NCBI GenBank assembly: GCA_943324505.2
Contig: CALPLW020000006.1
Coordinates: 1-35,129, forward strand
Length of the DNA: 35,129 bases
Direction: 5' to 3'
From: Comamonas sp. lk
Lineage (GTDB): Bacteria > Pseudomonadota > Gammaproteobacteria > Burkholderiales > Burkholderiaceae_C
Below the pieces are notes generated by a model. It was not told the DNA's origin. It ran no database searches and saw only the letters and a list, made by a program, of their open reading frames with translations. Made by a program: the position numbers and the translations under genes. Position 1 is the first letter of the stretch. Every line of letters starts with the position of its first letter. Below, in pieces: positions 11,166 through 31,556 of the stretch.

Positions 11166-11245
11166 GCTGAGACTTTAGAGTCCGGGTGGTCGACTGGTCC
11201 CGCGCGCGACAATCAGGCGTTTTTAAGTCACCCACAAGACAGGCT

Positions 11246-11965
11246 ATGGACGATCCCATTCTTACCATCGAAGAACGTGAAGCGATCAATTCCGGTCGCT
11301 GGTTTGCTTCCTTATCCCCTTCCCTTCGTCACGACATACTACGATGCGCCTACGTCAAACGTTTCAAGGACAGCGAGCTAATCGCTGCCCGAGGCGAACC
11401 GCCAGAGGAATGGATCGCCTGTGCTCGGGGAGCCGTACGGGTCAGCTCAACCTCGATCTCTGGCAAGCAGATCACACTGACTTACGTGGAGCCCGGCATC
11501 TGGTTTGGCGATGTGTCGATTTTCGACGGCGACCGGCGTACGCACGACGCCTATGCGCATGGCGACAGCACCATACTCTGTGTGGCAAAGGCCGATTTCA
11601 AGAAAATTTTGGCCCTGCATGCCGAGCTTTACGAGGCGCTGTTGCGCCTGCATGCCCGACGCATACGCCAGCTCTACGGTTTGGTCGAAGACTTGAACAC
11701 CTTGCCGCTACGGGCGCGTTTGGCCAAACAGTTGCTGCATCTGGTTCGCAGCTATGGCGTGCCGTCACTGAGCGATGGCCGGGAGATACGCATTGGGCTG
11801 CAGTTGGCGCAGGAAGAACTGGCGCAACTGCTGGGCGCATCCCGCCAGCGTGTCAATCAGGAACTCAAATCTATGGAACGTGAAGAAGCCATCCGCATCG
11901 AGCCAGGCGGCTTGGTCATTCGCAACCGTGAGACCTTGATGCAGATCATTGACGCTGACAGGTGA
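11246..11965 (+). CDS. Crp/Fnr-family transcriptional regulator
   Basis: cNMP-binding fold (GIWFGDVSIFDGDRRTHDAYA) plus HTH (LAQEELAQLLGASRQRVNQELKSMEREEAIRI); start at ATG 11246. Confidence 0.9.
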   Translation: MDDPILTIEEREAINSGRWFASLSPSLRHDILRCAYVKRFKDSELIAARGEPPEEWIACARGAVRVSSTSISGKQITLTYVEPGIWFGDVSIFDGDRRTHDAYAHGDSTILCVAKADFKKILALHAELYEALLRLHARRIRQLYGLVEDLNTLPLRARLAKQLLHLVRSYGVPSLSDGREIRIGLQLAQEELAQLLGASRQRVNQELKSMEREEAIRIEPGGLVIRNRETLMQIIDADR

Positions 11966-14423: not shown

Positions 14424-15662
14424 TCAGCGGCCCAGACCCTCAATCCCTGACCACAGTTCATGCAAGTCCGGGAACCGCCATTTGGCCGGGTCTTCCCGGC
14501 CTGCAATGCGGTCCACGGTATCGGCGCGGGATAAGTCGACCATCATCGCTGGGATTCTCAGGCTGGATTTGGTCGAGTAAAACATTTTGACCTTGGGCGT
14601 CGTCAAGGATTTCCCAGCCTGCTCTGTCACGACGCCGATGCGCCCGGACTTCATCAGTACCAGTGACCCCACCGGGTAAATGCCCATGCTCTTGACAAAG
14701 GCCTGGAACACCGCAGGGTCAAAATGGCCTTTGGACCATTCCGCCATTTTGCGCAGTGATTCGGCCGGATCCCAACCGGTCTTGTAGGCCCGGTTGGATG
14801 TGATGGCGTCATAGACATCGCAAACTGCTCCCATCTTGGCCAGCAAGCTGATCTCATCGCCCTTCAAGCCCTTGGGGTAACCCGAGCCATCCATTTTTTC
14901 ATGATGATGCAGGCAGACATCCAGCGCCACTGGGTCTATTTTTTCGCCGTTCAACAGCATGCCATGGCCTTCGACCGGGTGACTTTTGATTACCCCAAAC
15001 TCAGCTTCGGTCAACTTGCTGGGCTTATTCAGAATCAGCGGCGGCATCACGGCCTTTCCGAGGTCATGCAACAAGCCGGCCAAGCCAGCCGACCGCGTCT
15101 GCGCGTCATCGAAACCTAATTGCCGACCCAGCGCCACCATCATGGCGCACACTGCCACCGAATGCATGTAGGTGTAGTCGTCGGCGGTCTTTATGCGGGC
15201 CATGCTGATCAGGGCGTAAGGGTTACGGGACACCGAATCGGAGATGTGTTCAACCAACTGTCGTGCACTGCCTGTATCGACGGCATTGCCCATACGCGCC
15301 TCCTTGAACATCGCCACCACGGCCTGTTTAGACTGCTTGCAGATCTGGGCCGCCCGCGCCATTTCACGCTCGATAGCTACAGGCGCCACCGCAAGTTTGA
15401 CTGGCGCACGAGGATTAAGCACCGCTTCGATTTCACGCTCAGCCTGCTTTGGCAGCACCGCCACCACTGTGACCGGCACATCTATACCTTTGCTGCTGTC
15501 GATCCAGACCTCACGGATGCTGCTGGACCGTATCGTCAGCAAGTCCTTGGGGTTGGACAAGACAAAGGATGAGCGGATGAAGGGGTGCTCCATCCAGGAG
15601 CCACAAAACTCCTTGATGTGCATACCCACCATCAATTGGTCAACGCCGATTCGTTTCAGCAC
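14424..15662 (-). CDS. HD-GYP domain protein with DUF3391-like N-terminus (putative c-di-GMP phosphodiesterase), copy 1
   Basis: LLHDLGKAVMPP, HHHEKMDGSGYPKGLKGDEISLLAKMGAVCDVYDAITSNRAYK; start inferred at GTG 15662 by alignment with copy 2 (VLKRIGVDQL vs MLKRISVRQL). Confidence 0.88.
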   Translation of the reverse strand: MLKRIGVDQLMVGMHIKEFCGSWMEHPFIRSSFVLSNPKDLLTIRSSSIREVWIDSSKGIDVPVTVVAVLPKQAEREIEAVLNPRAPVKLAVAPVAIEREMARAAQICKQSKQAVVAMFKEARMGNAVDTGSARQLVEHISDSVSRNPYALISMARIKTADDYTYMHSVAVCAMMVALGRQLGFDDAQTRSAGLAGLLHDLGKAVMPPLILNKPSKLTEAEFGVIKSHPVEGHGMLLNGEKIDPVALDVCLHHHEKMDGSGYPKGLKGDEISLLAKMGAVCDVYDAITSNRAYKTGWDPAESLRKMAEWSKGHFDPAVFQAFVKSMGIYPVGSLVLMKSGRIGVVTEQAGKSLTTPKVKMFYSTKSSLRIPAMMVDLSRADTVDRIAGREDPAKWRFPDLHELWSGIEGLGR

Positions 15663-15727
15663 CGCAAATCCCCTGCCCCATATCGTTATGGCTTGATCAT
15701 AGTCTGGAAGGACAGCTCCGCTTAAAG

Positions 15728-16966
15728 TCAACGGCGCACAATGTCAATACCTGACCAAAGTTGGTCCAGATCGGGGAAGCCCCATTTCTCAGGATCCTCC
15801 CGGCCAATGATGCGCTCGGTCGTACCAGGACTCGACAAATCAACCAAGTCCGGTGCAATCCGCATATTCGACTTGGTGGAGAAAAAGACCTTCACCCTCG
15901 GCATGACAAGTGAAGCCGCCGCCTGCTCCGTGACCACGCCAATCCGGCCAGTGTTCATCAGAACCAGTGAGCCCACGGGGTAGATGCCCATGCTTTTGAC
16001 AAAGGCCTGAAACACCTTTTGATCAAAATGTCCGTTTGACCATTCAGCCATTTTCCGCAGCGCCTCGGCTGGATCCCATCCAGTTTTGTAAGGCCGGTTG
16101 GATGTGATTGCATCGTAGACATCACAGACCGCGCCCATTTTGGCCATCAGACTGATAGCATCACCCTTGAGACCCTCCGGATAACCTGAGCCATCTATTT
16201 TTTCGTGGTGGTGCAGGCAGACGTCGAGGGTGTCAGCGTCAAAGTTATCACTCATCAGCAGCATTGCATGCCCTTTGACCGGGTGGCTTTTCATGATTTC
16301 AAACTCAGCCGCTGTCAATTTTCCAGGCTTATTCAGCACCGTGGGCGGCATCGCGGCCTTACCCAAGTCGTGCATCAAACCGGCCAATCCCGCCAGCCGG
16401 GTTTTTGCTTCGTCCAGACCGAGTTGCTTGGCCAGCACCACCATCATGGCGCACACAGCCACCGAATGCAGATAGGTGTAGTCGTCCACCGTTTTCAGCC
16501 GTGCCAGACTGATCAGAGCGCTCGGGTTTCGCATCACCGAGTCTGAAATTTCCTCAACCAAATCTCTGGCGCCGCCAACGTCAACGCTGTTGCCCATGCG
16601 GACTTCTTCAAACATGGACACCATCGCCTGCTTCGAATGACTGCAAATCAGGGCGGCACGCTCCATTTCGTGCTCAATGGACAAACGAACCGCACGCCGG
16701 CCACCTAACGCCACCTGCTCAAGCGCAGCATCGATTTCAATTTCAGCCTGCTTTTCAGACACGACGGGCACAGAGGCGGAGACATCCAGTCCCTTGCTGC
16801 TGTCGATCCAGACTTCTTTGATGCTGCTTGCAAGAATAACGTTCAGATCTTTGGTATTGGAAAGCACAAAGGAAGCCCGTATGAACGGATGCTCCATCCA
16901 AGAGCCACAAAACTCCTTGATATGCATTCCCACGGTCAACTGTCTGACGCTGATGCGTTTAAGCAT
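15728..16966 (-). CDS. HD-GYP domain protein with DUF3391-like N-terminus (putative c-di-GMP phosphodiesterase), copy 2
   Basis: LMHDLGKAAMPP, HHHEKIDGSGYPEGLKGDAISLMAKMGAVCDVYDAITSNRPYK; ATG 16966 (MLKRISVRQLTVGMHIKEFCGSW). Confidence 0.9.
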   Translation of the reverse strand: MLKRISVRQLTVGMHIKEFCGSWMEHPFIRASFVLSNTKDLNVILASSIKEVWIDSSKGLDVSASVPVVSEKQAEIEIDAALEQVALGGRRAVRLSIEHEMERAALICSHSKQAMVSMFEEVRMGNSVDVGGARDLVEEISDSVMRNPSALISLARLKTVDDYTYLHSVAVCAMMVVLAKQLGLDEAKTRLAGLAGLMHDLGKAAMPPTVLNKPGKLTAAEFEIMKSHPVKGHAMLLMSDNFDADTLDVCLHHHEKIDGSGYPEGLKGDAISLMAKMGAVCDVYDAITSNRPYKTGWDPAEALRKMAEWSNGHFDQKVFQAFVKSMGIYPVGSLVLMNTGRIGVVTEQAAASLVMPRVKVFFSTKSNMRIAPDLVDLSSPGTTERIIGREDPEKWGFPDLDQLWSGIDIVRR

Positions 16967-17101
16967 GAAAAGCAAAATCCTGTTAAGCGAACGTGATTGA
17001 CGCCGCACTCTCCGCGTCATAACGCGCTGACCGAAAACGAGTATAAACCGCAACGCCAAACCGGTTTTGGCTGCCACCAGATCGACCTGTACACTCCCAA
17101 T

Positions 17102-18142
17102 ATGTCAAGCCTTTACCTGGATCACTTCGGTCTGAAAAGACCCCCTTTTCAGATCACGCCCGACCCTGATTTCTTTTTTTCAGGGGGGCGTCGGGGTGAT
17201 ATTCTGTCCGCGCTTTTGCATGTGGCCACGCATGACGAGGGCATCACCACCATGGTGGCCGAGGTGGGCAGCGGAAAGACATTATTGTCGCGACTCATGA
17301 TTGGCAAGCTGCCGGCTGACGTGTGCGCGGTTTACTTGGCAAATCCGTTTTTCAGCCGTGACGAGATCATTGAGGCCATTTCACGCGACTTGGGGCTGAC
17401 TGGCCTGGTGGCCTCTATGGAGGGCAAGCTCGCTGCTTTACAACACGAGTTGTTGCGCCGGCACGCCAGCGGTCAACGGGTGCTGCTGGTCATTGACGAG
17501 GCTCACACCATGCCCATCGAATCGCTCGAAGAAGTGCGCCTGCTGTCAAATATCGAAACCGGGCAACACAAGCTGGTCAACATCATGCTGTTTGGTCAGC
17601 CCGAACTCGACGACTTACTCGCCGAACCCAAGTTGCGGCAGCTCAGAGACAGGGTGATCCACCGCTTTGATCTTGCGCGACTTCACGCTGATGAAATCGG
17701 CGCCTACATAGACCACCGCCTGCGTGCTGCTGGCTGGACCAGCGCGCGCCTGTTTTCGCCGCAGGCACTGGCGCAACTTGTCAAGGTTTCAGATGGCCGG
17801 GCGCGTCGCATCAACCTACTGTCTGACAAGGCGCTGCTGGCGGCCTACGCGCAGGGCAAGGAATCGGTCGACGAGCATCACGTCATCAGCGCGGCAAGGG
17901 AGTTGCCAACGGTTCGCCCGGGCGCGGCCGGGAATGTGCAGCAACCCTGGGCCAATCCCGTCTGGCAAATAGCGGCAGCCAGCCTGGCCGCCGCGGGCCT
18001 ATACGGATTATTTTTATGGGCCAGCCTACCAATACCAGGGGGTGGCACTGCCGCATCAACGGCCGAAAAGATGCAACCCGCCAGCTCACCAACTCTCCAC
18101 TTCGATACCAGTTTGACGCTGGGGCCAAGGAGAGCAAATTAA
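17102..18142 (+). CDS. mshM: ExeA/MshM-like AAA+ ATPase with C-terminal TM segment
   Basis: YLDHFGLKRPPFQITPDPDFFFSGGRRGDILSALLH, AEVGSGKTLLSRLM Walker A, VLLVIDEAHTMPIESLEEVRLLSNIET; predicted TM near C-terminus. Confidence 0.85.
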   Translation: MSSLYLDHFGLKRPPFQITPDPDFFFSGGRRGDILSALLHVATHDEGITTMVAEVGSGKTLLSRLMIGKLPADVCAVYLANPFFSRDEIIEAISRDLGLTGLVASMEGKLAALQHELLRRHASGQRVLLVIDEAHTMPIESLEEVRLLSNIETGQHKLVNIMLFGQPELDDLLAEPKLRQLRDRVIHRFDLARLHADEIGAYIDHRLRAAGWTSARLFSPQALAQLVKVSDGRARRINLLSDKALLAAYAQGKESVDEHHVISAARELPTVRPGAAGNVQQPWANPVWQIAAASLAAAGLYGLFLWASLPIPGGGTAASTAEKMQPASSPTLHFDTSLTLGPRRAN

Positions 18143-18253
18143 CCGACTCGGGTAAAAAAATTCACTTCCAGCCCGTGATGCCTTAGGTCACCGTTATGTT
18201 TTTGCACTTACAATGACAAAACAAATGAACTGATTACCCAGGGAAAGCATCTG

Positions 18254-20092
18254 ATGAACGGGTATCTCCGGAATTCAACAAGCGTTCACATCGCGCTTGG
18301 TTCAAGTTTAAGGCTCGCTTGCCTGGGTGGTTGTCTCTGGCTCTCCGGATGCGCAGGCCCGACGCCGCTTTCGACATCGAACCAGCACCTGACACCCAGC
18401 CCGGTCGTGGCCGGGCGGCCACCCGATTTTGCGCTGGCGCCACCCATTCCCAAACCGCCGCGCCCCAGTGAGCGCCAAGAGCTCTACAGCGTGGTGATGC
18501 GAGACGTAGCGGTACAAGATCTGCTGTTTGCCCTTGCGCGTGACGCCAAACTGAATATCGATATCCATCCCGCTATCACTGGCACGGTCACCATGAATGT
18601 GAGCGACCAGACTTTGGTGGAAATATTGGATCGCGTCGCGCGGCAGATTGATCTGCGCTACGACATCAATGGCAAGAACCTGTCCATCCAGCCTGACCTG
18701 CCCTACCTTAAAAATTACCGCATCGACTACCCCAACATCGCTCGGAATTCAACTTCGGCTATCGGCTCGAGCAGTTCTGTCGGGGGCGGCAGCACCTCGA
18801 GCAGTTCCATTGACAACACCTCGTCCAACAAATTCTGGGACACGCTCAAAACCAATCTGATCGACTTACTGCGCGAAACCGACAAGGTGGTTCAAGAGGG
18901 CGGCACCGCCAGCGCCGCCACCGCTGCGCAGGCCGTAGCGCTCACACCTCGGCCTGCCACCAGCGCGCCCGCGTCAGGTGGTGCTGCCACAGGAAACCAA
19001 GTTACTGCAGCGACGGCAGCGGCGGCGGCACAATTGCAAGCCGCCAACGCCGCGGCTGTGCAGCCTGCAGCAGCAGTGCCCCGAAGCATTTTTCGTGAAG
19101 CCGCATCGGTCATTGTTAACGCCGAAACCGGTAACATCAGTGTTCGAGCTACACAAAGCCAACACACCAAGGTGCGTGAATTCGTGGACAGGGTATTGAG
19201 TTCTGCACGCCGGCAAGTGCTGCTTGAAGCCACCATCGTGGAAGTCGACCTGTCCAGCCAGTACCAGCAGGGCATCAACTGGTCGATTCTGCAAACCGGT
19301 GGCGCCAATGCCGGCTCGGGCATATCCATCAATCAAGGCAGTGCTGTGAGTTCGCTGGCCGAATTGACCTTCAAGCAATTCCGGCTCTGGAACGGCGATG
19401 CCGACCTGAGCGCCATGCTCCGGATGCTCGAGTCTTTCGGTACCTTGCGCGTGTTGTCAAGCCCCAAGATTTCGGTACTGAACAACCAGAGCAGCATGTT
19501 GAAGGTGGTGGACAACAAGGTGTATTTCACAGTCACTACCACCCCCGGGACCGCTGCCACGGCAACCACGCCGGCCACTGCGACGACTTACTCCACGGCG
19601 GCAACAACGGTCCCGATCGGCTTCCTGATGGCCGTGATACCGCAGATCAGTGAAGGCCACGAGATCACCCTGAACCTGCGGCCGACCATCACACGAATCA
19701 CTGGCTTCGTCAATGACCCCAACCCTGATCTGGCCAAGGCCGGTGTCTCCAACCGTGTACCCGAAGTCCAAACCCGCGAAATGGAATCCATGATGCGGGT
19801 GCAGTCGGGTGACATCGCCATTTTGGGAGGCTTGATGCAAGACAGTCGCGACAAAAACTCGGACGAAATTCCCGGCCTGAACAACCTGCCTTCTATTGGT
19901 AACCTGTTCAAGTACCGTAACGAGACGAGCAAAAAATCGGAATTGGTGATCTTTTTACGGCCTACGGTGCTGAGCGATGCCAGCCTGTCAGGCGATTTTC
20001 GGGACTATCGGGGGAATTTGCCGACCGCCCTCGACGACGGTCGCAGCAGTGGCGGCTTGATCACCTGGCCGCCGGCCAAGATGGCGCCATGA
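18254..20092 (+). CDS. mshL: MshL-type secretin (pilus/T2SS outer-membrane pore), lipoprotein signal
   Basis: LSGC lipobox, STN-like N domain (VAVQDLLFALARDAKLNIDIHPAITGTVTMNVSDQTLVEILD), secretin core (VRVLSSPKISVLNNQSSMLKVVDNKVYFTV; SGDIAILGGLMQDSRDKNSDEIPGLNNLPSIGNLFKY). Confidence 0.9.
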   Translation: MNGYLRNSTSVHIALGSSLRLACLGGCLWLSGCAGPTPLSTSNQHLTPSPVVAGRPPDFALAPPIPKPPRPSERQELYSVVMRDVAVQDLLFALARDAKLNIDIHPAITGTVTMNVSDQTLVEILDRVARQIDLRYDINGKNLSIQPDLPYLKNYRIDYPNIARNSTSAIGSSSSVGGGSTSSSSIDNTSSNKFWDTLKTNLIDLLRETDKVVQEGGTASAATAAQAVALTPRPATSAPASGGAATGNQVTAATAAAAAQLQAANAAAVQPAAAVPRSIFREAASVIVNAETGNISVRATQSQHTKVREFVDRVLSSARRQVLLEATIVEVDLSSQYQQGINWSILQTGGANAGSGISINQGSAVSSLAELTFKQFRLWNGDADLSAMLRMLESFGTLRVLSSPKISVLNNQSSMLKVVDNKVYFTVTTTPGTAATATTPATATTYSTAATTVPIGFLMAVIPQISEGHEITLNLRPTITRITGFVNDPNPDLAKAGVSNRVPEVQTREMESMMRVQSGDIAILGGLMQDSRDKNSDEIPGLNNLPSIGNLFKYRNETSKKSELVIFLRPTVLSDASLSGDFRDYRGNLPTALDDGRSSGGLITWPPAKMAP

Positions 20093-21894
20093 GTCTGCTG
20101 CTTGACGCTCTGAACCGCGCCAGCAAGGACAAGTCCGCCGCCGAGGCGGCCGCGCAACCCAAAGCGACTGCCGAATGGCCATCCATCAGTCTGACGGCAC
20201 TACCCAATGAGTCCACGCCAAGCGACCCTTCGCTGACACTTGAGCAGCCAGCGCCAGCAAGCCGGGCGGCAATGCAGTCGCCATTGCAGTTTCCGACGCT
20301 CGGCTTAAGCCTTGAGCCCGTATTGGCAGACGTGCCCAGCAATGCCTTGGCTGCCACGGCCGACCCAACTGTTTCGGGCCGTCCTATCGAGCCAACGTTG
20401 GACGAGGAGCCCTTGCTCGCGGCCTTGGGGCTTGGCCTTGACCCGATGCCGCCAGCAGCGCAATCCGAGCCTGCACCTCCCCAAGCAGCAGCGCCTGAGC
20501 CGGCGCCAGAACCCACTGCGCCGCCAATGGCAGAAACAACACCCTCGCCGCCAGTTAAACCGGCGCCAGCCAATAGCTCGGCCCAACCCAGCAAGGTAGC
20601 GCAAAGCATCATGCGCGCCAAAGAGTCCACGCAGGCCATCGGCACGCCACGACCAAGGATGCTGGCACTTGGGGCTGTGGCGAGCCTACTCAGTGTCAGT
20701 GCTGTCAGTGTGCTCTTGGGTTGGATAGACCCACTGGCGCTTCTGGGTCAGAGGTCAACCATCGGCCCTGTAGCGACGACCACGGCTCCAGCCATAACGG
20801 ATCCTGCCTCGGTAGCAGTTGCGCCAAGGGCCCAGCAGGCCGACGGGACGTCTATCCCTGACAATAACGTTGCCGCAAGCACCCCGCCTCAGAGTCGGGC
20901 GCCTGCTGCACCAGTCGCAGCGAAAGCGGGGAAAAAAGAGGCGGCGGTAACGGCCCTGGCCACCGCGACCGTGGCGCCTTTACCATCCCGAGCCAGTCCT
21001 GAGCCGGCTTCTGCTTCTGCTTCTGCTTCTGGTACTCCTACCCCTGCTGCTGCTACTTCGACTGAGACTGTGATCGCGCCACCTTCTGCTAACGTGCCGG
21101 CTTCTGCCCCTGCCGTTGTACTCACTGCTGCGCCAGTTCCGGGGCCCGCCGTCGCTGTCGCTGCCGCGCCCGCCAAACCTGCGTCTGGTCCCGCCACCAC
21201 CCGGCCAACACCCCGCGCTCGTTCGACGGCATCCCAAGCCAAGCTGTCTGACTTGCCCCAAATGCTGGTCACAGCACCGCCGGGGGCAAGCAAGCTGGAA
21301 CAAGCCTACGCCGCGCTGACGCAAGGTCGCCTGGCGGATGCTGCATCGGGCTATAAAGAAGTACTCAAAGTCAACCCTGAAGAACGCGACGCGCTCCTGG
21401 GCTTGGCCTATGTATCGCACAAAGAAGGGCGGGACGAAGAAGCGCGCGATTACTACAAACGCGTCTTACGCCAAGAGCCAGGCAACCCAACGGCACGGGC
21501 CGGGCTGTTAATCCAAAATCTGAGTAACGATGCCGAAGACGTGTCAGCCACTTCACGCGAAGTCGCTGAGCAGCACCCAGGCTCAGCAGCTGCGCAGTCC
21601 GTACTGGGGCATAGCCTGGTTCGGCAGGGGCGCCTGGCTGATGCCCAAATGGCCTTCCAGCGTGCCCAAGTGCTTGAGCCCAGCGTGGCACTCCACGCCT
21701 TCAATCTGGCGGTGGCGCTTGACCGGCTGAAAAGCCATGCGATGGCCCGAACCTTCTACGAACGCGCGCTGTCGCTGTCGAGGCAGAGCGGCGGCGAACA
21801 AGTCAGCGGGCTGACGCATGCCGTGGTGCAGCAGCGCATCGATGAACTACGCCTGGCCACGTCATCCAATCTGCCTGCAGTCAAACAACCGTGA
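20089..21894 (+). CDS. TPR-repeat protein, MshN-like, with Pro/Ala-rich linkers
   Basis: MSLLLDALNRASKDKSAAEA N-terminus, one TM (MLALGAVASLLSVSAVSVLLGWI), C-terminal TPRs; ATGA overlap with mshL. Confidence 0.82.
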   Translation: MSLLLDALNRASKDKSAAEAAAQPKATAEWPSISLTALPNESTPSDPSLTLEQPAPASRAAMQSPLQFPTLGLSLEPVLADVPSNALAATADPTVSGRPIEPTLDEEPLLAALGLGLDPMPPAAQSEPAPPQAAAPEPAPEPTAPPMAETTPSPPVKPAPANSSAQPSKVAQSIMRAKESTQAIGTPRPRMLALGAVASLLSVSAVSVLLGWIDPLALLGQRSTIGPVATTTAPAITDPASVAVAPRAQQADGTSIPDNNVAASTPPQSRAPAAPVAAKAGKKEAAVTALATATVAPLPSRASPEPASASASASGTPTPAAATSTETVIAPPSANVPASAPAVVLTAAPVPGPAVAVAAAPAKPASGPATTRPTPRARSTASQAKLSDLPQMLVTAPPGASKLEQAYAALTQGRLADAASGYKEVLKVNPEERDALLGLAYVSHKEGRDEEARDYYKRVLRQEPGNPTARAGLLIQNLSNDAEDVSATSREVAEQHPGSAAAQSVLGHSLVRQGRLADAQMAFQRAQVLEPSVALHAFNLAVALDRLKSHAMARTFYERALSLSRQSGGEQVSGLTHAVVQQRIDELRLATSSNLPAVKQP

Positions 21895-21960
21895 AAAAAG
21901 TGACCGGATGAATAGCCCGCTCCCTAATTTTTCCCCACCTCATACAGGCCTGGCCCCGCC

Positions 21961-23700
21961 ATGAGTGCTGCCCCAGCCCCCCCTGCTCGACCCACCGCCC
22001 CGAACGCGCCGCCAGTGCGCTTGGGCGATCAACTCGTCGCACTTGGCTTGATCAGCAGCGATCAGCTCCGAATTGCGCTGATGGAGCAAAAGCAAACTGG
22101 CAAGCCACTTGGCGAGGCCCTGATGGCCTTGGGCTTCGCCTCAGCCGAGGTGATGCGCAGTGCCCTGGCGGAAAAACTGGGTGAGAAATCTATCAGCCTC
22201 AAAGGCATCGTGGCCGATGCCGAGGCTTTGGCACTCATACCTAAAGCCGTGGCCAAACGCCATTCTCTGTTCCCCGTCAGCTTGGTCAAGCAAACCAATG
22301 AACTGATCATCGCCACGGCCAACCCCAATGACATCGTGGCGGCCGATCAGATCAAGGCCATGCTAGGGAGCGGCCCAAGGCCGAGCTGGCGTTTGGGCAA
22401 TGGTGCGGAAATCCAAAGTGCCATCGAGCAATACTACGGCCACGAACTGTCTATTGATGGCATTCTCCATGAACTTGAAACCGGCCAGGTAGACAACTTC
22501 GGTATCTCGTCAGACTCCGACGGCGGTTACAGCCACCCCGTTGTGCGACTGGTTGACTCCCTGCTGGCAGACGCCACGCTCCGCGGAGCATCAGATATCC
22601 ACCTCGAACCCGAGAATCAGTTCCTGCGTATTCGGTACCGCATTGACGGTGTTTTGCGGCAAATCCGCTCGTTGCACATCCGATATTGGTCGGCAATGGT
22701 GGTTCGCTTGAAAGTCATGGCTGGGATGAATATTGCCGAGACAAGGGCGCCACAAGACGGTCGTATTTCACTCTCTATCTCAGGCCGGCCTGTTGATTTT
22801 CGTTCAGCAGCGCAGCCCACCATCCATGGTGAGAATTTTGTCCTGAGGATTTTGGACCGCAGAAGCGGCATTTTGCCCCTGACAGGCCTCGGGCTGACGG
22901 AGGCTAACCTGCAACTGCTGCAACTGATGCTGTCACGGCCAGAAGGTATCCTGCTGGTAACAGGTCCTACGGGTTCGGGCAAGACAACAACGCTTTACTC
23001 CGTGTTGGGGCACCTCAACAATGAGGGCGTCAACATCATGACCCTGGAGGACCCGGTCGAATACCCGATGCCCGTCATTCGCCAGACCTCGATCTCTGAT
23101 GCCGTCAAGATGAACTTCTCTGAGGGTGTGCGTTCCATGATGCGGCAGGATCCGGACATCATTCTGGTCGGCGAGGTCCGCGACCAAGACACCGCAGAAA
23201 TGGCCTTCAGGGCGGCCATGACCGGGCACCAGGTGTTTTCTACCTTGCACACCAATTCGGCAGTGCGCTCGATTCCACGGCTTATCGACCTCGGCATCAA
23301 ACCTGACGTTCTGTCCGGTAATGTGATCGGCATTGTGGCGCAGCGACTCATCAGAACGCTCTGCAAGGCATGCAAGGCACCCGACACCCCCAATGAAGCA
23401 GAAGCCCAATTGTTGGGTTTTCCGGCGGACACAACGGCCGTCATTTACCGTCCCATAGGCTGTGCAATTTGTGATCAGCAGGGTTACAAAGGACGAGTGT
23501 CCATTGTGGAACTGCTCAAATTTGACACTCATCTGGATGAGCTGGTTACCCAGCGCTCGAGCATCAAGGTCATGACCGACTACCTTTACAGCCGAGGTTT
23601 CACGCCAATGGCCGTTGACGGCTTGCGACGTGTGCGCGAAGGCGTGACAACCCTCGAGGAGGTGGGTCGGGTGGTTGATCTTACCGATCTGGGGGCCTGA
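21961..23700 (+). CDS. mshE: GspE/PilB/MshE-type secretion ATPase
   Basis: MshEN-like tandem motifs at N-terminus, Walker [13 protein letters not shown], Asp box/Walker B (DPDIILVGEVRDQDTAEMAFRAAMTGHQVFSTLHTNSA). Confidence 0.93.
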   Translation: MSAAPAPPARPTAPNAPPVRLGDQLVALGLISSDQLRIALMEQKQTGKPLGEALMALGFASAEVMRSALAEKLGEKSISLKGIVADAEALALIPKAVAKRHSLFPVSLVKQTNELIIATANPNDIVAADQIKAMLGSGPRPSWRLGNGAEIQSAIEQYYGHELSIDGILHELETGQVDNFGISSDSDGGYSHPVVRLVDSLLADATLRGASDIHLEPENQFLRIRYRIDGVLRQIRSLHIRYWSAMVVRLKVMAGMNIAETRAPQDGRISLSISGRPVDFRSAAQPTIHGENFVLRILDRRSGILPLTGLGLTEANLQLLQLMLSRPEGILLVTGPTGSGKTTTLYSVLGHLNNEGVNIMTLEDPVEYPMPVIRQTSISDAVKMNFSEGVRSMMRQDPDIILVGEVRDQDTAEMAFRAAMTGHQVFSTLHTNSAVRSIPRLIDLGIKPDVLSGNVIGIVAQRLIRTLCKACKAPDTPNEAEAQLLGFPADTTAVIYRPIGCAICDQQGYKGRVSIVELLKFDTHLDELVTQRSSIKVMTDYLYSRGFTPMAVDGLRRVREGVTTLEEVGRVVDLTDLGA

Positions 23701-24899
23701 TGGCACAGTTCACCTACCGGGCAGCGAACGATGCTGGCGCCATCAGCAAAGGGCAGGTTGAAGCCCTGAATGAACTGGACCTGGAAGCGCAGCTCAAGAA
23801 CCTGGGTCTGCAGCTTGTATCGGCCAAGGCCTTGTCGGCGCGCAAGGGCAATGTCCAGAAAATGGCCCGGCGGGACGTGATCGATTTCCTGTTCCAACTG
23901 GAAATGTTGGCCCGGGCCGGCGTGCCGCTGCTGAGCTGCTTGGGTGACATGCGTGACGAGGCTGACTCTGCGACGGGTCGAGAATTAGCGGCGGGCCTCT
24001 ATGAAAAAATCGAAGCCGGGTCCACCTTCAGTGAGGCAATCGCATCCTTCCCCGGTATTTTCAGTCCAACCGTTACAAGTTTAATCCGAGCCGGGGAGCT
24101 GACCGGTCAACTGCCAGATGTTTTGAAAGAGATTGTGCGCTCACTCAAATGGCAGGACGAGCTGGCGGCGACCACCAAAAAACTGCTGATTTACCCCAGT
24201 TTCATGATCGTCGTCATCAGCGGTGTCGTATTTTTCCTGATGGTGTACCTGGTTCCGCAATTGGTGACCTTTATCGCAAGCATGGGCAAAACGCTGCCCT
24301 TTCACACGCGGCTATTGATCGCTGTCTCGGATGTTTTTGTACGCTTTTGGTGGATCATCCTGAGCACCCCGCCAATACTGATCGCCATCGTCTCAGCGGC
24401 GGCGGCGGTGAACCCAAAAATACGTTTCAAACTGCACCAGATGCAACTGGACCTACCGTACCTAGGGCCCATCCTGAAAAAGCTGATTCTGGCCCGATTC
24501 GCCGACACCTTTGCGCTGATGTACAAGACAGGCATCCCATTGATCGACGGACTGACCTACTGCCTTGATGTATCGGAAAATCTGGTCATCAAGCAGGCCA
24601 TTCGGCAGGCGCGCGACCGGGTGTTGACGGGTACATCGCTTTCCGAGAGCTTTGCTTTGGAGCAATTGTTTCCATCCTTGGTGATTCGCATGCTCAAAGT
24701 AGGGGAGTCCACCGGTGCCCTGGATACGTCCCTTGCAAACATCAGTTATTTTTACAGCCGCGACATCGATGAATCCGTGGCTAAAGCGCAGGCGATGGTC
24801 GAACCGGCGCTGACTGTCACCATGGGCGTGATCTTGGGTTGGATCATGGTCTCAGTACTGGGTCCGATCTACGACACCATCTCGACCATCAAAGTCTGA
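23700..24899 (+). CDS. mshG: GspF/PilC/MshG-type inner-membrane platform protein
   Basis: FLFQLEMLARAGVPLLSCLGDMRDEA, three TM segments, LYPSFMIVVISGVVFFLMVYLVPQ-type segment, GESTGALDTSLANISYFYSRDI. Confidence 0.92.
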   Translation: MAQFTYRAANDAGAISKGQVEALNELDLEAQLKNLGLQLVSAKALSARKGNVQKMARRDVIDFLFQLEMLARAGVPLLSCLGDMRDEADSATGRELAAGLYEKIEAGSTFSEAIASFPGIFSPTVTSLIRAGELTGQLPDVLKEIVRSLKWQDELAATTKKLLIYPSFMIVVISGVVFFLMVYLVPQLVTFIASMGKTLPFHTRLLIAVSDVFVRFWWIILSTPPILIAIVSAAAAVNPKIRFKLHQMQLDLPYLGPILKKLILARFADTFALMYKTGIPLIDGLTYCLDVSENLVIKQAIRQARDRVLTGTSLSESFALEQLFPSLVIRMLKVGESTGALDTSLANISYFYSRDIDESVAKAQAMVEPALTVTMGVILGWIMVSVLGPIYDTISTIKV

Positions 24900-24910
24900 C
24901 GCTCAACACC

Positions 24911-26392
24911 TTGAAAACGCTGCTCCATCTTGCGCCTGACGGCGCTCAACTATGGCGGAAGACCAAAGGACAGTGGTTGCCCGTGGACCGAGCGCACCGT
25001 GGTTCGGTTTGGATCGTCACGGACATGGCCGAAGAGACGATCTCTGAGGTTCAAGTACCACGCCTGTACGGCCGAGACAGAAGTGGCTTCATCAACCGGC
25101 AACTGACCAGCCGTTTCCCTGAAACACCCTACAAGATCGCCCTGCCCGCCTCGTCGCAGACCGGTCTTCTCAATCGCCTGGCACCGTTGCGACAGACCCT
25201 GTTGGCGCTTGATGCGAAAGAGCGGATAGATCAGGTGCTGGACAATCTGGATGCCAAGGTGGCCGGTCTGTGGAGCACATCGGGTTTGTTGGCGCGTCTT
25301 GGCGCGTCCAAAACGCTCCCTGGCAACTTATTTGTCGTGGTCCCAGGCTTGCAGTCGATGCGCATCCTTTTTTTAAAAGAGCGCGTGCCCATCATCAGTC
25401 GGCTCATTCTTGAGCCCAGCACAAGCCAGTTGGTCACGGCAGAAATCATCCGGACGCTTCGGCACCTTGAGAACACCAAGGTGATCGAACGCAGTAGCGA
25501 AAAGCCGCCTGTTTTGGTGCTGGGTAACCGTGAGGGCATTGCCCAGGGGCTGCTCGACGAACAGATGCGTTTGATTGAAGCGCCTGCAGCCTTGCGCAAG
25601 GTGGCGACCAGCGACTTCAAGTTTGCTCTTTTTGATCTGGCGATTCAGTCACCGCCCGGGCAACTGGCGCCGCTGTCACGTAGGACGGCCCATATCGCTG
25701 CCGCAGTGGGTCGGTGGGCGTACACCATGGCCGCAGCAATCATCTGCTTCGCCATCTGGAACCTGCTTGCCTCCTTCGAGCGAATTCAGGACGCACGGAC
25801 GTCAATCACTCGCAGCCAAGGCACTCTGACTGAATTGGGTCGCAAGCTGACGATGGTTGAGAAATCCATCGCGGCTTACCCGGTCACGAGCGAATTGGTC
25901 AAAAACACGATCCGCCTTGACCGTGAGGAGCTGCTCTCAGCACCTTCAATTTCCAAGCAATTGGCATCGATCACCGTGGCGCTCGCCGCAGACCCTGCGC
26001 TGCGGCTGGGCAGGCTCGATTGGTCGATTCAATCACCTCTGCTGGCATCCTGCCCGACAGATACTGCGATTGCCCTGGCAACTGCAGTGGCAACCAGCAC
26101 GCCAGCAAGCGACGCAGTCACTCGCGCACCTGGCACTCGGATCAGCTTTGATATTGTGCTACCGCCCACACTGACCGGCAAAGCCAGAACCAGCGTTATC
26201 GCAGCCGTATCCGAACGACTGACAAGCATTCCGGGAGTGGCACTGCAACTGGATCCAGCCAAACTGCAACCTGAATCGTCTTTGGCGGGTGGCAGTCGGC
26301 TGGCCGGCACAGAACCTGCGGCAGTAGCTTGGTGCCTCGATGTGTCAAATGTCTCCCCATCATTGGCACCATCACAGAGATCTAAACCATGA
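24911..26392 (+). CDS. PilM-PilN/MshI/GspL-like assembly protein
   Basis: Soluble N-terminal region, central TM (WAYTMAAAIICFAIWNLLASFERI), coiled region and PilN-like periplasmic domain; position between MshG and PilO-like gene; TTG start inferred. Confidence 0.65.
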   Translation: MKTLLHLAPDGAQLWRKTKGQWLPVDRAHRGSVWIVTDMAEETISEVQVPRLYGRDRSGFINRQLTSRFPETPYKIALPASSQTGLLNRLAPLRQTLLALDAKERIDQVLDNLDAKVAGLWSTSGLLARLGASKTLPGNLFVVVPGLQSMRILFLKERVPIISRLILEPSTSQLVTAEIIRTLRHLENTKVIERSSEKPPVLVLGNREGIAQGLLDEQMRLIEAPAALRKVATSDFKFALFDLAIQSPPGQLAPLSRRTAHIAAAVGRWAYTMAAAIICFAIWNLLASFERIQDARTSITRSQGTLTELGRKLTMVEKSIAAYPVTSELVKNTIRLDREELLSAPSISKQLASITVALAADPALRLGRLDWSIQSPLLASCPTDTAIALATAVATSTPASDAVTRAPGTRISFDIVLPPTLTGKARTSVIAAVSERLTSIPGVALQLDPAKLQPESSLAGGSRLAGTEPAAVAWCLDVSNVSPSLAPSQRSKP

Positions 26393-26988
26393 GCGACCTG
26401 GCATCTGTTGTGCGTCAGTCACGTGCAGGGCTGATCACGCTGGTAACCACCATAACGGTAGGGGGCCTGGCATATTGGGGCGTGACTGGTTTGGAACAAA
26501 ATGTGGCGCTTGAGTTGAGCACCTTTCAGACTCGTGAAGCAGGCGAAAATGCAAAATTAAATGAAAAAAACGCAGAATTAGGGTTTCTAAAGTCCAACTT
26601 CACCCGTTTTGAAACGCTTCGCGGATCGGGGCTGGCTGGCAATGCTGATCGGGAAGGCTGGGCAGAAACCTTGTTGAAAGTACACAAAAACAAAGCCCTC
26701 CCCGATACCCTGAGCTACACGCTGCTGGTACCGGTTCCCGTGCCCGGGATAGAACCGTCACCTACAGTCGCCCCCGCCCAGGCGCATGACATGACTCTGA
26801 CACTGGACAGCATTCATGAGGGCGAACTGTTTGAGTTTCTCAGCAGCTACGAGCAGCAGGTCAGAGGCAGATTCAGAGTCCAGTCCTGCCAGTTGTCGTC
26901 TCCCAGCAGCAAGGGTTTGAATGCAAGTTGCATCTTGCGCTTTTTCAACCAGCCACTTACTCCGCCTCTAGCGGCGCCTTCAACATGA
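26389..26988 (+). CDS. PilO/MshJ-like single-TM assembly protein
   Basis: N-terminal TM (AGLITLVTTITVGGLAYWGVTGLEQ) followed by coiled region; ATGA overlap with upstream gene. Confidence 0.55.
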   Translation: MSDLASVVRQSRAGLITLVTTITVGGLAYWGVTGLEQNVALELSTFQTREAGENAKLNEKNAELGFLKSNFTRFETLRGSGLAGNADREGWAETLLKVHKNKALPDTLSYTLLVPVPVPGIEPSPTVAPAQAHDMTLTLDSIHEGELFEFLSSYEQQVRGRFRVQSCQLSSPSSKGLNASCILRFFNQPLTPPLAAPST

Positions 26989-27461
26989 TTGAACAGCGTT
27001 CTGCAAATTCGCTGGGCTGCAAGGTCCGTCGCAAATGCTACGGTACCCCTTTGTCGCAAACAACGGCAACATCTTGGTTCAAGATGATCTTGATGCTGAG
27101 TTTGTCCATGACAGCTGTTCATACTCTGGCACAGTCTTACGCGAACCTTGGGCCTCTCTTCTTCAACGCGGCCGAGCGCCAGGCCATCGTCCAGGAGCGC
27201 GTCGGCCCTGCAGAGCAAGAGAAACCTCCCAGCATCGTGACACTCTCTGGGGTCCTGGTCCGTTCCGGCGGCAAAGGGACAGCCTGGATCAATGGCCAGG
27301 CGGTTCCTGAAGGGCACTCGCCATTTCCCGGCGTTCCGGTGACTATCCGGCCAGGCCATATCAGTATCAAGAACCAGGCAGTCCGTCCTGGCGAAATGCT
27401 GGACTTGACCAACAGCCATCGCGTCGATACGCTGGCTGCGGGCTCTGTCACACGCCGCTAG
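26985..27461 (+). CDS. PilP/MshK-like secreted or membrane-anchored protein
   Basis: Hydrophobic leader (FKMILMLSLSMTAVHTLAQ) and SGVLVRSGGKGTAWINGQAVPEG motif; ATGA overlap with upstream gene. Confidence 0.55.
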   Translation: MIEQRSANSLGCKVRRKCYGTPLSQTTATSWFKMILMLSLSMTAVHTLAQSYANLGPLFFNAAERQAIVQERVGPAEQEKPPSIVTLSGVLVRSGGKGTAWINGQAVPEGHSPFPGVPVTIRPGHISIKNQAVRPGEMLDLTNSHRVDTLAAGSVTRR

Positions 27462-27472
27462 TCCCGCAGCCT

Positions 27473-27715
27473 ATGAACATTAACACCAACGAAATCCTTA
27501 GTGCCCACAAGAAGAAAACGGCGGCACGTCAGCGTGTTCAGGAGGTGATTGGCTTCATCATTCTGCTAAGTGGGTACGCCCTGCTGGCCGTCAGCCCCGA
27601 CACGCCGTCGGACTGGTTGTTGATTCGTGTGGTGTCAGGATTTGTCGCCCTGTTTGCAGGTTTTGTCTTGGCCGTAATGCCATTCTTGACCAGGTTGACG
27701 GGCAGTGACCAGTAA
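27473..27715 (+). CDS. Small two-TM membrane protein of unknown function
   Basis: Two hydrophobic helices (VIGFIILLSGYALLAVS; LIRVVSGFVALFAGFVLAVMPFL), collinear between the assembly genes and the two-component genes. Confidence 0.7.
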   Translation: MNINTNEILSAHKKKTAARQRVQEVIGFIILLSGYALLAVSPDTPSDWLLIRVVSGFVALFAGFVLAVMPFLTRLTGSDQ

Positions 27716-28343
27716 GCACCCGGTGAACAGACCGTCAGAGTCAAACTTCATACTGCTCGCGGAGGATGACCCGACCCTCAGCGGCTACCTGAGCTCGTCA
27801 TTGACCGATGTCGGGTACCACGTTCAGGCGACACCTGACCGAGCGAGTGCGCTGAGCGTACTCGGCTCGGCCCTGCCCCCCAGCATGTTGCTGCTCGATC
27901 TTGGTCTTCCCCCGCACGCCAGTACCATGAGCGAGGGCCTGAGCTTGCTCGATGCGGCGCTCCAGCTGGTTCCTGGCATCAAAGTCATCGTCCTGACCGG
28001 TCAGGACGAGGATGCCGCAGCATTGGAGGCAATCAGGCGCGGCGCGTTTGATTTTTTGGTAAAACCCGCCAGCTTGGCCGCCATTCACGCGGCGGTCCGA
28101 AGGGCCAGCCTGTTCAACCAAACAGAAGAGCGTATGACGGTAGTGGGTGAAGCCCGCCTCCACCTGACGGCCAGGTTATGGGAAGGCCCCAAGGAGGCTG
28201 CGTCAAGTGCCGAAGAGCAACTGCTCCGGCGCACCTTGGTCGCGGCCGGGTACAACATCGCCGAGGTTGCGCGCCAACTTGGCATGGCCCGCGAGCATGT
28301 TTACTACTACCTGAACAAGTATGGATTACGGCGTCCTGAATAG
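27705..28343 (+). CDS. Response regulator: receiver domain plus Fis-type HTH
   Basis: ILLAEDDPTLSGYL, LLLDLGLP phosphoacceptor, KVIVLTGQD, FLVKPA; C-terminal LLRRTLVAAGYNIAEVARQLGMAREHVYYYLNKYGL. Confidence 0.9.
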   Translation: MTSKHPVNRPSESNFILLAEDDPTLSGYLSSSLTDVGYHVQATPDRASALSVLGSALPPSMLLLDLGLPPHASTMSEGLSLLDAALQLVPGIKVIVLTGQDEDAAALEAIRRGAFDFLVKPASLAAIHAAVRRASLFNQTEERMTVVGEARLHLTARLWEGPKEAASSAEEQLLRRTLVAAGYNIAEVARQLGMAREHVYYYLNKYGLRRPE

Positions 28344-29466
28344 CCTGACGCTGATTTTCCTGGCTGCGGGGCTCACCCTGTACCTGACCAGCAGGAGCCT
28401 GGCCCGGCGCGCAAAGAGCTACCAGGCGGGCATGCAAAGCCTGCTCCAACTGGGCGCGCAGGGGCTCGACCCACTCGACATTCCGCCCGCCGCCTGGCCG
28501 CTTTTGGCCGCCGGCGGCTGGCAGCATCTGCAGTTGTCAGGCGACTGGTTCGGCTACCTGGTCGAGTCCGAATGGGGAAAAAAACCAGAGCAGCCACTTA
28601 AAAGAGGCCCCAAGGCAAGCACGCCACTGGCATTTCGACTGAGCAGTGGTAACGACGTTTTGCTGGTGATGACACTGACCCACAGCGCCGTTGGGGGCGA
28701 GGGACGCCTGTTCGCCGAGCAACTGGCCAAGGTGTTTGTCTTGCTGCTGGAATCGGCGCTGCGCGTTCGGACCGAAGCCATTTCGGTGGCCATGGCCGAG
28801 CGGGCCAGGTTGACGCTCTACCTGCAGCACGACATGCGCAATCTGGCCCAATGGGTCGGCTGGGTGTGCTCTGATTTCAATGATTGCCAACAGCCCGAGA
28901 GCCTGCTCATCGCAGCGCGGCGCCTGCAACAAAATGCACCGCTGGCACGGGAACGTGCAGATCGGCTGGTGGCTCTGCTCGGAAACAACCCAGCCAATCA
29001 ACAAGCGGCCCTGCTGGACTTGAGGCTAGCGGTAGAAAATGCAGCGCAAATGGCCGGGGTACAGGTCGACATCTCTGGGCAGGCACAGGCCTGGATCGCA
29101 CAAACCTTGCTGGCCCGAGCCTTGGACAACCTGTTTTCTAACCTGGCGCCCAATTGGCGCAATCCTGGCGCCGACAAACCGGTGCTTCATTTGCGAACCA
29201 GTACAGAAAGTCCATTTAAACCGGCCATGGCAGAGTTGCGGTTTTTTAGCCCTTGGCCGAACGCGCAAGTGCGCATAGAGCCATTGAGACTCTTTGAACC
29301 GTTTGCAAGCGGGCGGCCAGGCGGGCTGGGGCTTGGCCTCTACCAGGCTCGCAAAAGCCTGCAGGAAGCCCACGGCGACCTTAGCGCAGAAGTCGATGAC
29401 CTTGGGATTACCTTTGTCCTGACGATTCCGGACCGCCAAATTCAAGTTTCAGCCGGCGCCAACTAA
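28321..29466 (+). CDS. Histidine kinase (atypical HDxxN H-box, PrsK-like)
   Basis: H-box-like LYLQHDMRNLAQWV, N-box ALDNLFSNLAPNW, G-box GRPGGLGLGLYQARKSLQEAHG; starts inside upstream RR gene. Confidence 0.82.
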   Translation: MDYGVLNSLTLIFLAAGLTLYLTSRSLARRAKSYQAGMQSLLQLGAQGLDPLDIPPAAWPLLAAGGWQHLQLSGDWFGYLVESEWGKKPEQPLKRGPKASTPLAFRLSSGNDVLLVMTLTHSAVGGEGRLFAEQLAKVFVLLLESALRVRTEAISVAMAERARLTLYLQHDMRNLAQWVGWVCSDFNDCQQPESLLIAARRLQQNAPLARERADRLVALLGNNPANQQAALLDLRLAVENAAQMAGVQVDISGQAQAWIAQTLLARALDNLFSNLAPNWRNPGADKPVLHLRTSTESPFKPAMAELRFFSPWPNAQVRIEPLRLFEPFASGRPGGLGLGLYQARKSLQEAHGDLSAEVDDLGITFVLTIPDRQIQVSAGAN

Positions 29467-30195: not shown

Positions 30196-31239
30196 TCAGG
30201 AGCGACGCGCCAAAGGCAGGTTAAGCAAGAGATTTTGTGGTTTGAGTTTGAGCCGCTGGTGCTCATCCATGGCCATGGCCAGATAGACCGGCCGGCCAGC
30301 CACCGCGACCAGCATATCGGCTGGGTTGGCGAACTCCAGGCGAAACAGGCAGAGCAGGCGGCGCATGCGCTCTGCATCGGGTTCATCGCCTTCGTACAGA
30401 TCATTCAGAATGCCGCTGGCCTGGGCATCCAGACCCACGTGCCACACCCAGTGCTCGTCAACGATCTCGCGGTCAGTCTGCACACGCACCTCGACTTTGA
30501 GGAAATGGCTGACCCACCGCTGCAGCAACTCTGCCAGCGCCAACAGTGCGGGTTGACCCTGGTTGAGGTTGAGCACCAGGTCAAAGTGCTCGCTGCGCGG
30601 CCAGTACAGGTCGGGTTTGTCGGCATCCAAGACGTCCAGGTCCACACTGCGCAGCGGCACGCCGCCTTGACGCAGCAACTCCCCCACGCTTCCAAAACCC
30701 GCCGACAGGGCATGGCGCTCCACCGTTTCATCGTCGGCGGCCATCACCGCACCGTCTTCCAGCACCGAGATTTTTTGGGTTCGAAACAACATCTCAGCCA
30801 CGCGGGCCTGCATCGCCGTGGCGGTGTCACCGAGCACATGGCGCAGCAAGATCTGGGTGAGTTGCTGCACCAGCACCGGCGCCACATCAACACCCTCACC
30901 CTGAAACAAGGCCAGGTAAGCCGCCTCCAGCGTGGGGGCGGCCAGCAGGCGGTCACGAAAGCGCAGCCACACACCATAGTTGTCAGCGGCATCCGGGTCC
31001 TGCAAGGCCTGCAGAGCAGCGGCCGGCACTGTGTGGCGGGGATCGGCAATGAGGCTCTCATGCAAACCCAGTTCAGCCGCACAGGAGGCGGGAATGGGGG
31101 CGATTTCGGGGCGTTGCAGCAGCACACGCAGAAAATCGTCGGTCAGGACCAAGTGCCCTTCCGGGTTGACAGCCAGATACGTGTAGCCGCAAGAGGGCCA
31201 GAAGTCGTGCCGGGTTGGCGCGACGGCCGCAGAGGAAGT
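30196..31239 (-). CDS. Conserved hypothetical protein (DUF6352-like); start codon unresolved
   Basis: Long ORF with ordered protein-like sequence DFWPSCGYTYLAVNPEGHLVLTDDFLR...; ORF extends upstream into tRNA-Leu with no ATG/GTG/TTG between the tRNA and the DFWPSCGY region. Confidence 0.75.
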   Translation of the reverse strand, partial: TSSAAVAPTRHDFWPSCGYTYLAVNPEGHLVLTDDFLRVLLQRPEIAPIPASCAAELGLHESLIADPRHTVPAAALQALQDPDAADNYGVWLRFRDRLLAAPTLEAAYLALFQGEGVDVAPVLVQQLTQILLRHVLGDTATAMQARVAEMLFRTQKISVLEDGAVMAADDETVERHALSAGFGSVGELLRQGGVPLRSVDLDVLDADKPDLYWPRSEHFDLVLNLNQGQPALLALAELLQRWVSHFLKVEVRVQTDREIVDEHWVWHVGLDAQASGILNDLYEGDEPDAERMRRLLCLFRLEFANPADMLVAVAGRPVYLAMAMDEHQRLKLKPQNLLLNLPLARRS

Positions 31240-31332
31240 GGTGCCCGGGACCGGAATCGAACCGGTACGCCCCTTATGCAGGAAAGCGGCGGATTTTAAG
31301 TCCGATGTGTCTACCAATTTCACCACCCGGGC
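31239..31332 (-). tRNA. tRNA-Leu (anticodon TAA)
   Basis: Reverse: GCCCGGGTGGTGAAATTGGTAGACACATCGGACTTAAAATCC...GGTTCGATTCCGGTCCCGGGCACCA; 7-bp acceptor stem, encoded CCA. Confidence 0.95.
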
Positions 31333-31358
31333 ACGGCAGCAAGCAGCCGGAGTTGTTC

Positions 31359-31432
31359 TGGAGGCGCGACCCGGAGTCGAACCGGGCTAGACGGATTTGC
31401 AATCCGTTGCATAACCGATTTGCTATCGCGCC
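31359..31432 (-). tRNA. tRNA-Cys (anticodon GCA)
   Basis: Reverse: GGCGCGATAGCAAATCGGTTATGCAACGGATTGCAAATCCGTCTAGCCCGGTTCGACTCCGGGTCGCGCCTCCA. Confidence 0.95.
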
Positions 31433-31445
31433 ATTCATCTGACAA

Positions 31446-31472
31446 AAAAGGGAAGCACTTGGCTTCCCTTTT
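31446..31472 (-). terminator. Rho-independent terminator-like hairpin between tRNA-Gly and tRNA-Cys
   Basis: Perfect 11-bp stem AAAAGGGAAGC/GCTTCCCTTTT with 5-nt loop, T-run on the minus strand (complement of a44-a49). Confidence 0.7.
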
Positions 31473-31480
31473 CTTCAATT

Positions 31481-31556
31481 TGGAGCGGGAAAAGAGTCTC
31501 GAACTCTCGACCTCAACCTTGGCAAGGTTGCGCTCTACCAACTGAGCTATTCCCGC
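31481..31556 (-). tRNA. tRNA-Gly (anticodon GCC)
   Basis: Reverse: GCGGGAATAGCTCAGTTGGTAGAGCGCAACCTTGCCAAGGTTGAGGTCGAGAGTTCGAGACTCTTTTCCCGCTCCA. Confidence 0.96.

Follow-up and report, generated by a model that had tools for sequence, protein, structure and literature searches.

A putative MSHA-related type IV filament machine in Comamonas, with a linked two-component system and a conserved box at the promoter of a remote pilin gene

The eleven genes located at positions 17102-29466 of the 35,129-nucleotide DNA stretch of Comamonas sp. lk analyzed in this work (the window) probably encode a type IV filament machine, a relative of the MSHA pilus machine that stands apart from it, and the response regulator (RR) and histidine kinase (HK) at the end of the gene run would activate a remote pilin gene of the KGQ type through a conserved promoter box, in a role similar to that of PilSR. 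No published account of such a locus with the RR/HK pair was found in the open-access literature. A sequence-only reading of the window had offered, as one of several options, an under-described hybrid with its own regulators. This option is supported by the data presented below, and two findings extend it, namely the box at the pilin promoter and the separation of the system's ATPase from MSHA-type paralogues in a tree.

The window corresponds to contig C6 of a 3.7-Mb MAG of 390 contigs (87% complete, 5% contamination). Inspection of the ORFs and of their overlaps revealed a compact run in the order mshM, L, N, E, G, I, J, K, 2-TM gene, RR and HK (Table 1), in which all of the machine genes are open frames. 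ATGA four-base overlaps are present at the mshL/N, I/J and J/K junctions, a single base is shared at the E/G junction, and the 2-TM/RR and RR/HK genes overlap by 11 and 23 nt, respectively. The tightly packed MSHA-like run with two regulators anticipated in the sequence-only reading was borne out in its ORFs, order, strand and start-stop overlaps. The profile search suggested in that reading supported the AAA_22, Secretin/TIGR02519, TPR, T2SSE plus MshEN, T2SSF, and Response_reg plus HTH_8 assignments, and nothing meaningful was obtained for MshI, MshJ and MshK in the Pfam/NCBIfam scan. TIGR02519 was by far the best family of the secretin, and the MshE-like ATPase reached 60.4 bits against NF053729, above its cut-off of 38. 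A profile search with MshI against PDB sequences did not yield any significant match; its AF2 model (pLDDT 72) matched PilM (5eoy, 2ych) and GspL (4pht, 5tkw) in Foldseek. Gene calls in relatives were longest-ORF calls.

Table 1. Features of the window around the msh-like locus
Feature	Coordinates	Strand	Evidence or remark
DUF3391 + HD-GYP, probable c-di-GMP phosphodiesterase	14424..15731	-	PF11871, PF13487
Second DUF3391 + HD-GYP, divergent from mshM, likely start ~16966	15728..17077	-	PF11871, PF13487
mshM-like / ExeA-type AAA ATPase, 346 aa	17102..18142	+	PF13401 (AAA_22) 83 bits; nearest NCBIfam TIGR03015, below cut-off
mshL-like outer-membrane secretin, 612 aa	18254..20092	+	PF00263 125 bits; TIGR02519 MshL 245.7 bits (cut-off 250.2)
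MshN-like TPR protein, 601 aa	20089..21894	+	TPR families; position matched in relatives
MshE-like extension ATPase, N-terminal MshEN c-di-GMP motif, 579 aa	21961..23700	+	PF00437 416 bits, PF05157
MshG-like inner-membrane platform, 399 aa	23700..24899	+	PF00482 (T2SSF) 166 bits
MshI-like: PilM/GspL actin-like domain + TM + PilN-like domain, 494 aa	24908..26392	+	structure model
MshJ-like (PilO position), 199 aa	26389..26988	+	position, length, conservation among relatives
MshK-like (PilP position), WINGQAVPEG motif	26985..27461	+	position, length, conservation among relatives
Small 2-TM protein, 80 aa	27473..27715	+	present in 15 loci, window counted
Response regulator, REC + Fis-type HTH, without AAA domain, 212 aa	27705..28343	+	PF00072, PF02954 (HTH_8)
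Membrane histidine kinase, H170 in LQHDMRN H-box, 381 aa	28321..29466	+	22-locus alignment; AF2 + Foldseek
Three tRNA genes (Leu-TAA, Cys-GCA, Gly-GCC), downstream of locus	31239..31556	-

The HD-GYP genes are arranged in tandem in the window; L034 has one such gene, and none is found upstream in the other listed loci. Because they occur only in the window and in L034 among the listed loci, these neighbours were rejected as a conserved component.

Neither a type IV pilin motif inside the locus (the window has just two loose matches, both in spurious ORFs outside the locus) nor a prepilin peptidase within the window was found, as the sequence-only reading had stated. Its suggestion that the machine may use remote pilins is favoured by the search of the whole genome, which detected 11 N_methyl matches and one prepilin peptidase, on contig C204. 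According to inspection and neighbourhood, the 11 matches are of the PilA/PilE, Gsp, FimT/PilVW, KGQ and GRLPCPA types, and none of them is an MshA-type major pilin in this 87% complete MAG. The remaining T2SSE genes, as read from their neighbours, belong to a T4aP (C150, C136) and to a T2SS (C174, C72) with their own pilins, and four remote pilins, on C153, on C381 and as a pair on C151, are unaccounted for by these two systems. All four match pilin families that are present inside the locus of relatives (search and alignment), where the GRLPCPA pilins are mostly located between mshK and the RR gene, and the KGQ pilins mostly right after the HK gene. The ends of C153 and C381 overlap by 425 bp with 93% identity and, therefore, both contigs most likely represent one locus, which shows the order ABC permease, pilin, PglL-type ligase, second pilin and ABC ATPase. 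The assignment of C151, C153 and C381 to the MAG relies on binning and is supported by synteny in relatives. With these pilins and the C204 peptidase, the genome contains the ATPase, platform, secretin, PilMNOP-type set, pilins and prepilin peptidase that characterize the type IV filament superfamily, MshJ and MshK being assigned by position only.

The PglL-type ligase between the two pilin genes (L026 1327-2856, on C381 of G000) carries Wzy_C_2, Wzy_C and PglL_A domains, and a PglL-type ligase adjoins a pilin gene in L112 (G020) as well; this neighbourhood suggests that the pilins may be glycosylated. In the alignment, the relocated KGQ pilins of L024, L112 and L113 lack the cysteines that most in-locus members have in their C-terminal half.

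The arrangement of the pilin genes was compared among relatives. In G020 (L034), the machine and the KGQ pilin are on a single contig, with about 26 kb between them, and in G017 the pilin lies about 9 kb from the RR gene on the opposite strand; both genomes have the same ABC/pilin neighbourhood as C153/C381, and the C151 pair has its syntenic partner on C67 of G017 (L118). The pilins are in the locus in G013, G014, G029 and most full loci of the clade. Since pilins are found in or beside the locus in most relatives, their absence here is a derived local state and not a property of the system, i.e. the pilin-less aspect is a local rearrangement. In L033 the pilin follows the HK gene, but a DUF6806 C-terminal fragment (353 bp, 87%) is present on both sides of the pilin, and a short HK-like piece lies near it as well (9353-11775), so that a duplication or an assembly chimera is possible. 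These features weakened L033 as a proof that the pilin was ancestrally beside HK in the subclade, and the ancestral position was read from the wider clade instead.

When the 37 genomes of the genus were scanned for MshL (at least 500 bits), RR (at least 250 bits) and KGQ pilin (at least 79 bits), the three proteins were found in an identical set of seven genomes and in none of the other 30 at a comparable score; identical sets of seven are expected by chance with a probability of about 1e-7 if relatedness is ignored.

The RR/HK pair is a conserved trait of one clade of loci that covers several families. Mapping of HK presence on the 55 scorable loci of an MshE tree of 81 loci revealed three changes, i.e. 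a clade of 37 loci (SH-aLRT 99) from Comamonadaceae, Sterolibacteriaceae, Rhodocyclales, Lysobacteraceae and others, a single loss of RR/HK in L056, L058, L059 and L060, and an isolated presence in L107. At the level of the order, HK was found in 6 of 399 genomes, all of them among the 154 with MshL, and in each case it is encoded on the mshL strand, at most 14 kb downstream. Among 274 genomes of the class, HK was present in 2 and MshL in 50, with HK and MshL of G252 being on separate contigs. The sequence-only reading would have been contradicted by pilin genes just outside the locus in most relatives, annotated as a standard MSHA pilus of this exact order, or by an unconserved linkage of the two-component genes; pilins in or beside the locus were indeed found in most relatives, and the linkage turned out to be conserved across families. 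Its interpretation is therefore partly supported, namely for the MSHA-like machine, the lack of a local pilin and the use of remote pilins.

The four loci that lost the pair do not show a match to mshM either, an apparent joint loss. In L107, RR/HK (20349-21668) are located beside a locus of the HK-less clade, which may reflect transfer or independent retention.

The alignment of 22 loci showed that residue D65 and the HTH residues of RR are near-invariant. The H-box (LQHDMRN), the N-box and the GLGLGL region of HK are kept in the window clade, and the AF2 model of HK (pLDDT 80) matched histidine-kinase cores in Foldseek; nevertheless, the DxGxG (G1) box was lacking in 22 of the 22 aligned loci, which makes the kinase activity uncertain. 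The xanthomonad HKs of L061-L063 have lost the Asn of the N-box too.

A word search upstream of the KGQ pilins of HK-bearing loci revealed one strong motif, with exact gapped words shared by up to 13 of 22 sequences (3-4 in shuffled sequences), and the same gapped words were found in 0 of 17 sequences upstream of HK-less pilins. The motif is a 15-bp imperfect palindrome, GTAAAAATTTCTGAC, that is followed by TCCC and, about 23 bp on, by a -10 box. By eye, it was recognized in the 22 upstream sequences and in L054, being weakest in L063, L064 and L115, and hence it precedes the pilin in 23 of 23 HK-bearing loci examined, the relocated pilin counted. These loci are related, and such counts are not independent events. 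The symmetry of the box is 0.60 compared with 0.31 for shuffled letters, and GT...AC is present in 27 of 27 sites. In 17 of 23 cases the distance between the first G and the start of a TANNNT box is 37-39 bp, an offset whose binomial probability (3e-23) assumes independence and is overstated because the loci are related. Where the pilin is next to HK, the first bases of the box overlap the HK stop codon, and the remote copies keep these bases without the HK gene. The identity between remote and adjacent pilins is 0.69-0.75 within the box and 0.21-0.35 in the flanking windows.

The distribution of the box was then analyzed with a matrix and with a fixed pattern. At 19 bits, the matrix, which was built from the box sites and whose scores for those sites are thus not independent, gave 17 matches in 531 kb of clade loci versus 1 in 849 kb of other loci, the latter being in L111 and not at a pilin. 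The fixed pattern GTAAANNTTYNNSACTCC was designed from known sites, so that its news is its rarity elsewhere; it matched once in the whole 3.7-Mb genome, at C153:7720, 87 bp before the start of the remote pilin. It was present in 8 of 61 genomes; five of these bear HK and show the match at their KGQ pilin, the other matches are in G015 (L156, with no pilin downstream), G010 and G042, and the reversed pattern used as a control matched none of the 61. Five further HK genomes were inspected: in G408, G422 and G461, order genomes outside the matrix, the box lies 114-136 bp ahead of the GFTLVE codon at four pilins, G050 has a diverged palindrome at the pilin, and G252 is without the box. Two cultured bacteria, Lysobacter sp. 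CAU 1642 and Pseudomarimonas arenosa CAU 1598, carry the locus together with RR/HK and the box. The box was not found upstream of six additional HK-less control pilins (0 of 23 HK-less in total), upstream of the msh operon or of the C151 pair, or in the sister loci L056, L058, L059 and L060 that lost RR/HK. Sigma-54 pilin promoters, found in 1 of 46 upstream sequences (L096; shuffled rate 0.4%) and at none of the own pilins or msh genes, were rejected.

These results are consistent with a simple model, which we propose from comparative sequence analysis. The secretin, the extension ATPase, the platform, the PilMNOP-type alignment proteins, the ExeA-like ATPase and the TPR protein would constitute a filament assembly machine, and the C204 prepilin peptidase would mature the remote pilins, which are the KGQ pilin (the candidate major subunit, C153/C381), the second pilin next to it and the GRLPCPA pair of C151. 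HK would signal to RR, whose Fis-type HTH may bind the 15-bp GTAAAANNNTTTTAC-type imperfect palindrome, the centre of which is close to position -43 in the promoter of the KGQ pilin. The bound RR would then activate this promoter, HK to RR to KGQ pilin promoter being the simplest model, so that proteins other than PilSR would play a PilSR-like role. An activator that overlaps the -35 region (class II activation) would be expected to have its site near -43, at a constant distance from a -10 box. Because neither the machine operon nor the C151 pair has a box, the control by RR would reach the KGQ pilin alone. As a further layer of control, c-di-GMP might gate extension through the MshEN motif of the MshE-like ATPase. 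Such an input is plausible, as motif I of the window ATPase is perfect, but motif II departs from the consensus in two key residues, its first R being P and its last Q being K.

The box might instead be the site of another regulator or part of an alternative-sigma promoter, RR/HK controlling something else, e.g. the c-di-GMP enzymes or the machine operon. We consider this unlikely, even though co-occurrence of the box and RR/HK is not equal to binding, both sets are phylogenetically nested and could be co-inherited without direct binding, and the msh operon that encodes RR is itself without a box; the palindromic symmetry suits a dimeric activator, the -10 box lies at a fixed 22-24 bp downstream of the box, the box is gone where RR/HK were lost, and the sigma-54 scan was negative. 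That the box occurs only where RR/HK are present and was kept by the moved pilin makes the parts still look like one system. It is very improbable that the machine is a relic or a filament-less secretion system, with the remote pilins serving the T4aP or the T2SS. Such a view could draw on the lack of an own pilin in the locus and on the T4aP and T2SS, with their own pilins, present in the genome, but it has to face open frames in all of the machine genes, a strict machine-pilin co-occurrence in the genus, where machine-less relatives have no strong KGQ pilin match, and relatives that carry these pilin families in the locus. Moreover, the T2SS equivalog cut-offs were widely missed and the genome has a separate T2SS; the option of a secretion system rather than a pilus, raised in the sequence-only reading, is therefore left without support.

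It is also quite unlikely that the locus is simply a canonical MSHA with scattered pilins in a known arrangement. The MSH model (PMC6668835) has mshA, E, G, L and M as mandatory genes and allows mshA as a loner; its description indicates that MSH loci are normally without a prepilin peptidase and that MSH systems are almost always a single locus. The gene content of the window fits MSH, with the mshE, mshG, mshL and mshM homologues together in one locus, no peptidase in the locus and one on C204, and the TIGR02519 cut-off was missed just narrowly; the loner status of mshA in the model (PMC6668835) would accommodate remote pilins. However, the system departs from the single-locus habit, with pilins on C151 and C153/C381, it has the gene order M-L-N-E-G-I-J-K, and no MshA-type pilin was detected in the genome. 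A second MshE-like ATPase was found within about 30 kb of that of the system in 5 of the 9 genomes searched, and those of G706 and G708 are accompanied in their loci by msh-type genes and MshA-like pilins (ORFs judged by eye). In a quick tree without V. cholerae MshE, the 20 sampled ATPases of the system formed their own clade (SH-aLRT 100, stem 1.63), the paralogues, including those next door in G706 and G708, forming another. In agreement with this, the N-domain of V. cholerae MshE (5htl), the sole MSHA reference compared, scored 93 bits with the G706 paralogue and 48 with the window protein. With a separate clade and this lower N-domain score, the window ATPase was not assigned as an orthologue of MSHA MshE; the system would be MSHA-like in working, but on both results it was not assigned to MSHA. 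More tentatively than for the window itself, we favour a second type IV filament system that is related to MSH, has no name of its own and shows the order M-L-N-E-G-I-J-K. It would be distributed widely among beta- and some gammaproteobacteria, part of the genomes having it beside an MSHA-type locus, and in one clade it would have a non-sigma-54 two-component system driving the major pilin from a conserved operator that followed the moved pilin gene.

An apparently incomplete pilus locus thus becomes a testable system, for which a putative operator and candidates for the regulator and for the major pilin, the latter on another contig, are available, and in which machine and substrate would be separable in the genome yet tied by a promoter element. 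Pilin genes would be controlled here by a system other than PilSR, the MSH-related filament family is one that annotation will likely merge with MSHA, and the pilin-PglL neighbourhood provides a concrete glycosylation hypothesis.

Among known systems, the canonical MSHA (e.g. of Vibrio cholerae) shares with the window the msh-type set M, L, N, E, G, I, J and K, an MshEN-type N-domain on the ATPase and the absence of a prepilin peptidase from the locus. In contrast, the window system has another gene order, an ATPase of a separate clade, KGQ and GRLPCPA pilins that replace MshA, a dedicated RR/HK pair and, in its own genome, dispersed pilins. Some relatives have both kinds of locus, and in L150 and L151 (G706) and in L152 (G708) an MSHA-type locus with an MshA-like pilin directly adjoins the second msh-like system. 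The type II secretion system has homologous E, F, D and L components, but the window proteins missed the GspD, GspE and GspF equivalog cut-offs (166.8 versus 351.35, 493.3 versus 630.25 and 286.9 versus 424 bits, respectively), the T2SS of the own genome is a separate set elsewhere, and the window locus is without pseudopilins. PrsK/PrsR of PEP-CTERM/EPS systems (TIGR02916, TIGR02915) are the nearest family for the HK C-terminus and the REC domain, although HK (23.1 versus 300 bits) and RR (101.3 versus 502.6 bits) fall far under the cut-offs and the genomic partner is another one. A functional parallel would be PilS-PilR, which exerts two-component control of pilA in T4aP (PMC6058289), in that a pilus-dedicated two-component system would govern the major pilin gene in the window system as well. 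Nevertheless, the window RR is not of the NtrC type of PilR, as it lacks an AAA domain, and the own pilins and msh genes are without a sigma-54 promoter match; its putative site near -43 is next to a -10 box, and the RR/HK genes are linked to an msh-like machine.
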